Below are positions 5,352 through 18,183 of a DNA stretch of 32,460 bases, one piece after another. Source of the stretch: Betaproteobacteria bacterium. GTDB lineage: Bacteria > Pseudomonadota > Gammaproteobacteria > Burkholderiales > Burkholderiaceae_C. The position numbers and the translations under genes are program-made. The notes beneath the pieces were generated by a model, which worked only from the letters and a program-made list of their open reading frames with translations, was not told the DNA's origin and ran no database searches. The DNA lies in assembly GCA_010030205.1 (NCBI GenBank), contig RGQD01000015.1, positions 1-32,460 on the forward strand. The letters are read 5' to 3'. How positions within the stretch are numbered: position 1 is the first letter of the stretch; each line of letters opens with the position of its first letter.

Positions 5352-5418
5352 GCTTGCTCCGGGGCTTGCGCGGCACGGCGCCTGAATCAGGCACTGCGCG
5401 ACGATTTCAACAAGTGTT

Positions 5419-8520: not shown

Positions 8521-8589
8521 CAAAGGTTCTTTCGGCCGTGCTGGTCGATGGATGAATCATTGAAACAATCGAAGGCATCGAAGGCACAT

Positions 8590-8901
8590 ATGTACGCGCT
8601 CATAAAAACCGGTGGCAAGCAGTTCAAGGTGGCTGCCGGCGAAAAAATCAAAGTAGAACAGATAGCAGCGGACGTGGGCCAAGAGATCGTGATCGACCAG
8701 GTTCTGGCAGTCGGCAGCGGCGCAGAATTGACGATCGGGACTCCCTTGGTGGCCGGCGCGACAGTGACAGCCACTGTTTTGTCGCACGGCAAGCACGACA
8801 AGGTGCGCATCTTCAAGATGCGCCGCCGCAAGCACTATCAACGGCACGGCGGCCATCGCCAGACTTACACCGAGCTGCAAATCGGCGCCATCGGCGTCTG
8901 A
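8590..8901 (+). CDS. rplU: 50S ribosomal protein L21
   Basis: Structural protein of the large ribosomal subunit that binds 23S rRNA. The 103-residue product starts [14 protein letters not shown] and includes the family signature [21 protein letters not shown] near the C-terminus. The open frame extends upstream, but the ATG at 8590 gives the universal L21 N-terminus and length. It is followed by rpmA after a 113-base gap. Confidence 0.97.
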
Positions 8902-9164
8902 GGCCCGCGGGCTGCCGCCTGGCGGTAGTCGTCCACCATGGGTGGGATCGAGTCAACCGGTCGAATCCGGCTTTGAACTGTTCCGGCCCTCGTCAATCAG
9001 GAGTTTTTTAAACCATGGCACAGAAAAAAGGCGGCGGCTCAACCCGCAACGGCCGCGATTCCCAACCCAAGATGCTGGGCGTCAAGGTCTACGGCGGTCA
9101 GGTCATCCCGGCTGGTTCGATCATCGTTCGTCACCCCGGCCTGAGCGTCTTCGACGCGGCTGTT

Positions 9165-9208
9165 GCCCCGCTTAGCCGGGGCCATGGCTTGAGCCCGGTT
9201 GCCGGGCT
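9165..9208. repeat. Two tandem GC hairpins inside the broken end of rpmA
   Basis: Hairpin one pairs GCCCCG (9165-9170) with CGGGGC (9177-9182). Hairpin two pairs AGCCCGG (9192-9198) with CCGGGCT (9202-9208). A third, the terminator, follows at 9219-9238. The series fills the stretch where conserved L27 codons should be. Confidence 0.8.
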
Positions 9209-9218
9209 GCGGTCATCA

Positions 9219-9241
9219 AGCCCCGGCCTGCCGGGGCTTTT
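9219..9241 (+). terminator. Rho-independent terminator after rpmA
   Basis: AGCCCCGGC (9219-9227) pairs with GCCGGGGCT (9230-9238), followed by a short T-run. It separates rplU-rpmA from obg. The altered rpmA frame reads through it, which is itself a sign that this reading frame is not native here. Confidence 0.85.
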
Positions 9242-9251
9242 GTGTTATTGA

Positions 9252-11574
<2,323 letters not shown>

Positions 11575-11586
11575 ACCAGGCTGAGG

Positions 11587-11912
11587 TCAGGCGGCCAGTT
11601 CGGCCTTGGCCAGCTCGATATCGATGCGCTCCGCCGCATCGGCTGTTTCGCAGGCGGCCGCCCTGGATAGCCTGCGCCTTGTTGGCCAGTGTGATCCTGC
11701 GCCGCCGATCCTGGTCCCGGTCTCATGCGCTTGCTAAAACTCGCCGGCATGAGATGTGCCCAGCTTCGCAGCGGTTCGAGGTCCTGGGGGCAGTCCTCGG
11801 CGTCACCGAGCTGCAGTCTTGGCCAGGATTTCTTCAGCGCTGCGCTGCTGCGACTGTATCGAGAGCTGTCGTATGGAGAGCTGTCGTATGGAAAAGCGGT
11901 CCACTTGGTCAT
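11587..11912 (-). pseudogene. Degraded TPR-family protein gene
   Basis: Reading the minus strand from the ATG at 11910-11912 gives MTKWTAFPYDSS...ALKKSWPRLQLGDAED, the N-terminus of a betaproteobacterial tetratricopeptide-repeat protein as I remember the family (MAKWTPFPY..., ALKKxWxRLHAGDAE). Frames then shift: HAGEF, an in-frame TAG, QAHE...RIGGAG, then ITLANKAQAI in another frame. It ends in the family-like tail ADAAERIDIELAKAELAA and TGA at 11587-11589. The central TPR region (well over 100 residues) is missing. A 15-bp tandem duplication repeats the N-terminal residues PYDSS. So there is a large internal deletion, several frameshifts and one stop. Family assignment is from memory and needs a search. 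Confidence 0.65.
11861..11890. repeat. Perfect 15-bp tandem duplication
   Basis: GAGAGCTGTCGTATG occurs twice head-to-tail (11861-11875, 11876-11890). It lies in the N-terminal part of the degraded TPR gene, where it duplicates five codons in frame. Confidence 0.95.
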
Positions 11913-11935
11913 TGCCGATCTCCTGGCAGAGGATT

Positions 11936-12706
11936 TCAGTCAGCGCTGCGGTAGGCGCCAGCGATCTCGAACAGGTGCTCGCGAGCCTGCGGCTCCAGGT
12001 AGGGCATCAGCAGGGCCAGCACATGGTAGGCGCCGCGCGATAGCGCTGCTGCCGCGCTCTCGGGTTCGAGCGCGCGGCGCGGATCGCGAACATATTCGAA
12101 GCTCAGCCAGTAGGTGAGCACGACCACCATGCTGCTGGCCACAGGCTCGGCCTCGCGGCGGTCTATGCGCATCGAGTTGCCGCGCGTCAGACCTTCGAAC
12201 ACCTGCTGCACAGCCCGCGACTTGTTCTTCAGCACGAACTGGAAATGGGTCTCTAGCCTGCGGTTCTTGCTGAGCAGGTCGTTGAGGTCGCGGTACAGGA
12301 ATCGGTACTGCCAGATCAACTCGAACAGCATGTGAAAGAACAGCCAGGCGTCCTCTACGTTGCGCACATTGTCGGCAGCCTGCAGCAAGTCGTTCAGGCC
12401 ATGCTCGAACGCCGCGAACAAGGTGTTGATCAGTTCGTCCTTGGCCGGGTAGTGGTAATACAGGTTGCCCGGGCTGATGCCCATCTCGGCCGAAATCAGC
12501 GTGGTGCTGACATTGGGCTCACCAAAGCGGTTGAACAGATCGAGCGTGACTTCGAGGATGCGTTCGGCCGTGCGGCGTGGCTTCTTGACTTGCGACTTAG
12601 GCGTTGATGCTGGCGCCGAATTGGGCGGCTCGCTATTGAGTGCCACCGATTGCAACTCGACGGGTTGTTGCGACGCTTGGTCGCCGGATGGGTTCGTTTC
12701 GCGCAT
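11936..12706 (-). CDS. TetR-family transcriptional regulator
   Basis: DNA-binding repressor type regulator, 256 residues. A polar, low-complexity N-terminal tail (about 1-43, rich in Ser, Pro, Gln) precedes the TetR HTH: RTAERILEVTLDLFNRFGEPNVSTTLISAEMGISPGNLYYHYPAKDELI. The remainder is a helical ligand or dimerisation domain. The longest frame starts at a TTG (12728-12730), but the ATG at 12704-12706 is preferred. It is divergent from the ABC transporter pair 67 bases away, with an inverted repeat over the transporter promoter. It may therefore regulate the exporter and itself; ligand unknown. Confidence 0.85.
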   Translation of the reverse strand: MRETNPSGDQASQQPVELQSVALNSEPPNSAPASTPKSQVKKPRRTAERILEVTLDLFNRFGEPNVSTTLISAEMGISPGNLYYHYPAKDELINTLFAAFEHGLNDLLQAADNVRNVEDAWLFFHMLFELIWQYRFLYRDLNDLLSKNRRLETHFQFVLKNKSRAVQQVFEGLTRGNSMRIDRREAEPVASSMVVVLTYWLSFEYVRDPRRALEPESAAAALSRGAYHVLALLMPYLEPQAREHLFEIAGAYRSAD

Positions 12707-16869: not shown

Positions 16870-18183
16870 ATGCCCGACATCCGCCAACTCAGCACCGCCA
16901 GCGCCGATTTCGAAGCCGAATTCCAGCGCGTGCTGCACTGGTCGGCCGAGACCGACGATGCGATCGAGCAGCGTGTGGCCGAGATACTGGCCGATGTTCG
17001 AATCCGAGGCGATGCCGCCCTGCTCGACTTCACCGCCCGCTTCGACGGTCTGAACGCGGCCAGCATGGCCGAACTGGAACTCACACGCGACGAACTGCAG
17101 CGCGCCTTCGACGCGATCACGCCGGCCCAACGCAGCGCGCTGCAAGCTGCTGCCGAGCGCGTGCGCAGCTACCACCAACACCAGCTCCAGGCCTGTGGCC
17201 TGAGCTGGCAGTATCGCGACGAAGATGGCACGCTGCTGGGTCAGAAGGTCACGCCGTTGGATCGGGTGGGTATCTACGTGCCTGGCGGCAAGGCGGCATA
17301 TCCCTCGTCGGTGCTGATGAACGCGATCCCCGCCCATGTCGCCGGGGTCGGCGAGATCATCATGGTGGTGCCCACGCCCAGAGGCGAGAAGAACCCGCTG
17401 GTGCTGGCTGCGGCCTACGTGGCGGGTGTGACCCGCGTCTTCACCGTTGGCGGTGCACAGGCGGTGGCCTCGCTGGCCTACGGCACGGCCACGGTGCCCA
17501 GGGTCGACAAGATCACGGGTCCAGGCAACGCCTATGTTGCGGCAGCCAAGCGGCGTGTCTTCGGCCGGGTCGGTATCGACATGATCGCCGGCCCTAGCGA
17601 GATCCTGGTGCTGGCCGACGGCACGACGCCACCCGATTGGGTCGCGATGGACATGTTCAGCCAGGCTGAGCACGACGAACTCGCGCAGTCCATCCTGCTC
17701 AGCCCCGACGCGGTCTACATCGCGCAGGTCAAGGCTTCGATCGACCGGCTGCTGCCCGGCATGCCGCGCCGTGAGGTGATCCAGGCCTCACTGTCGGGCC
17801 GCGGCGCGCTGATCCACACCCGGTCTATGGACGAGGCCTGCGAGATCAGCAACCGCATCGCGCCCGAGCATCTGGAGGTCAGCTCGGCCGACCCGCAGCG
17901 CTGGGAGCCCAAGCTGCGCCATGCGGGGGCTATCTTCCTGGGCGCCTGGACCAGCGAGAGCCTGGGCGACTACTGCGCCGGACCCAACCATGTGCTGCCG
18001 ACCTCGGGCACCGCACGTTTCTCGTCACCGTTGGGTGTCTATGACTTCCAGAAGCGCAGCAGCCTGATCGAAGTCAGCCAAGCCGGTGCCCAGGTGTTGG
18101 GGCCGATCGCCGCCGAACTGGCCTACGGCGAAGGGCTGCATGCGCATGCCTTGGCCGCGCAGATGAGGCTCAAGCCGGTTTGA
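16870..18183 (+). CDS. hisD: Histidinol dehydrogenase HisD
   Basis: Zinc enzyme making the last two NAD-dependent oxidations from histidinol to histidine. The 437-residue product has the family signature [31 protein letters not shown], the region [15 protein letters not shown] with zinc and catalytic residues, and the catalytic pair in APEHLEV. It starts 30 bases after hisG. The expected next gene of the histidine operon, hisC, does not follow; after 18183 the sequence turns into non-coding DNA and a pseudogene. Confidence 0.97.

Follow-up and report, generated by a model that had tools for sequence, protein, structure and literature searches.

Two bodies of earlier work bear on the locus described here. 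Local assembly errors that are left in drafts assembled from metagenomes have been reported to place incomplete or incorrect protein-coding genes in databases, and lack of read support is named as a test for them in the part of that report drawn on here (PMC7111523). For ribosomal protein L27, deletion in Escherichia coli has been described, in excerpts of two sources, as causing slow growth and 10,000-fold fewer CFU at saturation (PMC12871816, a preprint) and as making growth six times slower (PMC4647459, citing earlier work). Since L27 of E. coli can be deleted at heavy cost, survival is not in itself an argument against a real deletion of its gene.

The window, by which we mean the whole stretch of 32,460 nucleotides that was analysed (C47:1-32460), belongs to a draft genome whose 906 contigs total 5,480,979 bases. 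This draft was 97.06% complete with 6.9% contamination, and is thus both fragmented and mixed. The named records nearest to its Obg include Albitalea, Ideonella, Mitsuaria and Rubrivivax, in a list from which the window's own record may be missing. The gene order at the locus was rplU-rpmA-obg, as in relatives and as it would be around a functional bL27 gene (Table 1). The upstream neighbour, which we take from its position and sequence to be rplU encoding L21, was 95% and 92% identical to the 104-aa ORF of two relatives (G007 and G020, respectively), and residues 3-332 of the downstream Obg covered the TIGR02729 profile from 1 to 328 of 329.

Table 1. Coordinates of the features at the rplU-rpmA-obg locus of the window.
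Feature	Coordinates	Strand	Evidence
rplU (L21), intact, upstream neighbour	8590..8901	+	104-aa ORF of relatives aligns at 8590-8898
rpmA 5' remnant, L27 codons 1-39, frame intact	9015..9131	+	Alignment with 16 relatives; Pfam PF01016 1-47 of 79
Junction zone (TCGTCA)	9128..9133	+	1-6 nt common to both sides; 128 bp missing
rpmA 3' end, VTPA-stop, last four codons, out of frame with the remnant	9130..9144	+	GTCACCCCGGCCTGA versus GTCACCCCGGTCTGA and variants in relatives
rpmA-obg spacer, stem-loops 9165-9182 and 9184-9216	9145..9217	+	Folding and alignment of relatives
Intrinsic terminator	9218..9239	+	18-nt stem-loop core identical in 13 of 14 genus relatives
obg/cgtA, intact, downstream neighbour	9279..10367	+	TIGR02729, 4.5e-137

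As the sequence-only reading had proposed, the 78-aa ORF at 9015-9251 begins as L27 and departs from the family after residue 39-42. Its N-terminal half alone scored 58.3 bits against Pfam PF01016, above the gathering score of 20.5, while the match covered positions 1-47 of 79 and fell short of the whole domain; against NCBIfam TIGR00062 it reached 56 bits, below the curated cut-off of 90.35. We consider it highly probable (roughly 0.93), judging from the DNA and protein comparisons below, that the shortening of rpmA to half its length arose as an error in the draft sequence. In the living cell L27 would then be of normal size, about 85 residues, and the missing DNA would have been lost when two stretches of sequence were wrongly joined.

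The nature of the loss was apparent from an alignment of the rpmA DNA with that of 16 relatives, 14 from the genus and 2 from the family. The window DNA tracked rpmA through codon 39 and then skipped to the gene's final four codons with their stop. These end codons read GTC ACC CCG GCC TGA here, and GTC ACC CCG GTC TGA or variants thereof in relatives (VTP(A/V)-stop). From the ATG to the old stop the 14 genus relatives have 258 bp and the window has 130 bp, a loss of 128 bp. Since three does not divide 128, translation misses the old stop and the ORF runs into the spacer and terminator. The earlier view that the rest of L27 is in no frame was not confirmed: the last four codons and stop are present in another frame, and it is the sequence from codon 39/40 up to them that has been lost.

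Such a loss could also be a real, very recent out-of-frame deletion of rpmA in a lineage that grows slowly or is doomed; slippage between short direct repeats would be one way to produce it. Consistent with this, the sequence common to both sides of the junction would be up to 6 nt long if codon 39 had been CGT, as in 2 of the 14 genus relatives; it would be 1-3 nt with CGC or CGG at that codon, which the remaining 12 have. E. coli without L27 is, moreover, viable but sick according to the material seen from both sources (PMC12871816, PMC4647459). The 39 remaining codons differed from the 14 genus relatives at 7-15 synonymous and 2-4 non-synonymous positions, and the same codons differed among those relatives by a mean of 8.3 synonymous and 1.9 non-synonymous changes. 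No further decay in the form of substitutions or extra frameshifts was seen in the remnant near the break, which argues against a real deletion, although a very recent one would look alike. The loss is clean and its flanks are undecayed, as would be expected of a local assembly error. No relative with a full locus has the same loss, and separate explanations would be needed for the losses in tuf, rplW and rpsC that are described below. Taken together, we regard a recent deletion as very unlikely.

The remainder of the ORF gave a similar picture. What had been described as 39 unrelated residues are the end codons of rpmA read out of frame, followed by the spacer. Folding was in agreement with the earlier observation that this tail passes through two stem-loops and the terminator, with energies of -18.5 kcal/mol (9145-9185, z -1.4), -20.3 kcal/mol (9183-9216, z -3.6) and -17.6 kcal/mol (9216-9248, z -3.2). 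In the 3' ends and spacers of the 14 genus relatives the length over which the same frame was open ranged from 5 codons to 54 or more, the latter figure being a lower bound as the frame was still open where the examined stretch ends in 2 of the 14. An open tail is thus unremarkable and to be expected in such GC-rich DNA. This bears on the suggestion of a functioning minimal L27, made of 39-42 family residues and a new tail of 36-39 residues. In its favour, the ORF is open to 9251 and the N-terminal residues, which reach the peptidyl transferase centre in known ribosomes according to the abstract of PMC12871816, are intact. The profile coverage of 47 of 79 positions, the missed NCBIfam cut-off and the composition of the tail, which is made up of the 3' end of rpmA with its spacer and terminator and lies where chance open frames occur in relatives too, all speak against it; no such form was seen in relatives. 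We therefore found no support for this suggestion and give it next to no credence.

The repeat CCCCGGCCTG, present at the break and in the terminator, had been taken as a hint of a recombination or assembly mechanism. This 10-mer occurred twice in the window versus 0.29 expected, and 4 of 100 shuffles also reached two copies. One copy consists of the T-P-A-stop codons of rpmA and the other lies in the conserved terminator, while CCCCGG was found at the stop codon in 7 of the 14 genus relatives; by these comparisons each copy has an ordinary origin of its own. Recombination or collapse between the copies was rejected on these grounds, and because the DNA between them remains, the repeat cannot be the mechanism of the break. 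Likewise, of the idea of a mis-assembly collapsed across the hairpins, we retain the mis-assembly and not the collapse: the break lies upstream of the hairpins and terminator, and the spacer that holds them is normal.

The truncation was absent wherever the same interval could be compared with relatives. Of 21 genomes in the genus, 19 had an L27 match, among them the present one, and in all 18 others it spanned the profile from position 1 to 75-79. No match was obtained in G001, a genome of 61% completeness, or in G017, where the best match to obg begins at the first base of its contig. A pattern search of 80 obg loci from named records recovered an L27 gene in 72, each of at least 84 residues (72/72); among the eight loci that gave none by pattern, two (L048 and L080) carry less than 150 bp before obg. 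In the family sample 391 of 399 genomes, again including this one, had an L27 match and 8 had none. Four of these eight genomes without a match over the cut-off are at least 90% complete (G092, G310, G371 and G380). Judged by the best E-value column only, 389 of the 391 matching genomes were rated full-length, the exceptions being this genome (7.9e-15) and G044 (1.9e-17), with all others at about 1e-32 or better. The match of G044 stops at the last base of its contig. Across these sequence sets the truncation is thus not shared with relatives, as an assembly error would predict.

A truly broken copy, accompanied by an intact second rpmA elsewhere in the genome, had also been proposed. A draft that is fragmented and 97% complete could have left such a copy unassembled, and extra L27 copies do occur in drafts: among seven genomes re-examined, G385 had two matches over the cut-off, and G194 carries an intact L27 on contig C141 together with a frameshifted second copy (L146:3665-3903, G194:C69, minus strand). 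A search of the whole draft gave one L27 match and no second. The C-terminal half of L27 found nothing in this draft, while the same search was positive in 6 of 7 other genomes; the exception was G017, in which L27 as a whole has no match either. For window DNA from 8582 to 10367 there was a single full match in the draft, the remaining ones being short and weak. In this draft a second rpmA was hence not found, and we consider its existence hardly credible. A split rpmA gene was also rejected, with no C-terminal half located in the draft.

The most informative evidence came from another contig of the same draft, C99 (L145; 9,000 bp), which carries the S10-spc operon region. In its tuf gene, around 888/889, EF-Tu is short by 123 bp, or 41 codons in frame, compared with G012 and G007, the two relatives that reach the point of loss. 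In rplW, around 3172, L23 is short by 49 nt that include its last residues and stop, and the frame enters the L2 gene; the distance from the L23 core to L2 is 221 nt here versus 270 nt in all three relatives compared (G012, G007 and G020). In rpsC, at 5359-5371, the distance from the S3 start to the L16 start is 729 nt versus 855-909 nt in 8 of 8 relatives, which corresponds to a loss of 126-180 bp that includes the S3 stop and sequence ahead of the L16 start. As a result S3 and L16 (rplP) form a single ORF of 381 residues from the S3 Met, while in the 8 relatives they are kept apart by a stop and 12-13 nt. Nine of 11 other genes on C99 (S10, L3, L4, S19, L22, L14, L24, L5 and S14) aligned lengthwise with three relatives, except for the first residues of some ORFs, where the start was chosen by the analyst. 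L29 and S17 were split or showed small gaps or partial length relative to some relatives, L2 had near-complete profiles in a check against Pfam only, and the end of the contig truncates S8. Another contig of this region, C294 (L170), has an unaligned stretch at 1794-2027 that is 115 nt shorter than in G012.

Implausible losses thus recur at tuf, rplW and rpsC, elsewhere in the draft, as would be expected of assembly error. Because these three clean losses on C99 of the same draft resemble that in rpmA, an assembly error is the most likely explanation of the latter: evolution would hardly produce four clean losses in the core translation genes of a single draft, whereas bad joins easily would. 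The forms of EF-Tu (from the tuf copy on C99) and S3-L16 would probably be worse than a loss of L27. With a genome of normal size, it is very unlikely that all four losses are real, and a free-living Rubrivivax relative with a truly trimmed translation apparatus, comprising a half L27, an S3-L16 fusion and altered EF-Tu and L23, strikes us as highly improbable. Candidate culprits of the bad join may be the assembler, the scaffolder or a chimeric read at a thinly covered place, and conserved DNA common to co-occurring relatives could tangle assembly at translation genes. It should be noted that translation genes received the closest scrutiny of all genes.

Several observations run counter to assembly error. 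First, the losses vary in size (128, 123, 126-180 and 49) and in their junctions: the overlap is 1-6 nt at rpmA, none at tuf and, by eye, little or none at S3. Since sizes and junctions differ among the four losses, no single mechanism is demonstrated. An artefact of fixed size was rejected, as three losses looked alike in size but that in L23 is 49 nt. Chimeric reads formed through microhomology, known from formalin-fixed tissue (PMC8674242, seen in part), were considered as a cause in library chemistry and offer a loose analogy only. Second, a degenerate gene at 11.6-12.0 kb of the window points to some decay in the organism itself. It lies at 11590-11960 on the minus strand, between a proB-like and a TetR-like gene, and shows a loss at 11662-11666 that amounts to 461 bp relative to five of seven relatives and to 483 and 503 relative to the remaining two. 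Its remnant carries further small indels, and five relatives have an open frame that starts with MAKWTAFPYD. This looks like real gene decay.

Controls were taken elsewhere in the draft and along the window. The error does not look uniform, in that no clean internal gap of the rpmA kind was seen in 30 ORFs selected among the 72 on 9 contigs, out of 20 contigs sampled. Twenty of these ORFs had a family match, and this control is weak in that several of the 20 span their best profile only partly (for example methionine synthase and two ORFs that lie at the start and near the end of a contig, respectively) and in that a family scan is less sensitive than DNA comparison. A run of errors along the whole contig was not seen, with Pfam matches in 19 of 20 window ORFs. 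The sole exception, ORF 191-727, lies opposite a gene beside groES that by eye we presume to be groEL. In the first 18 kb, rpmA was the conserved gene that breaks, as judged from the three relatives listed of the five computed, and the remaining conserved genes of the window keep their frames.

Several differences in length were observed besides. The region upstream of rplU is 46-72 nt short relative to 3 of 7 relatives, and obg is 144 nt short relative to G012 alone. In the gene at 16870-18183, 51 nt are missing at 17378 compared with 2 of 7 relatives (G007 and G020), which may be either natural length variation or another loss. Conversely, the rplU-rpmA spacer (8902-9012) is 75-82 nt longer than in all seven relatives, the obg-proB spacer (10321-10483) is 95-114 nt longer than in 6 of 7, and the groES-groEL spacer (790-953) exceeds by 131-139 nt that of the three relatives with an alignment across it. 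The extra groES-groEL stretch as a misplaced piece was discarded, as it had no match elsewhere in the sequences compared.

As biology, the truncation of rpmA is most likely without importance. Its value is as a warning, since a draft rated 97% complete nevertheless has at least four core translation genes broken by clean losses. When a ribosomal protein appears to be lost or fused in one such draft, the other ribosomal genes and the reads should be checked first.

Compared with known systems, the locus resembles bL27 (rpmA, PF01016, TIGR00062) in residues 1-39, in the rplU-rpmA-obg order and in the terminator after the gene, and differs in that the stretch from codon 39/40 to the last four codons is absent and the end is out of frame. 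The E. coli rpmA deletion strains show, in the portions of PMC12871816 and PMC4647459 used here, that life without L27 is possible and costly; they are laboratory deletions of one gene, whereas here we are dealing with a draft that has losses in several translation genes. There is a likeness, too, to the local assembly errors of metagenomes, which, as far as the excerpted text of PMC7111523 describes them, share with this draft the wrong joins within contigs, the incorrect genes and the fragmentation. In contrast to those errors, size and junction type vary among the four sites found here, and the wrong joins are deduced from sequence comparison.
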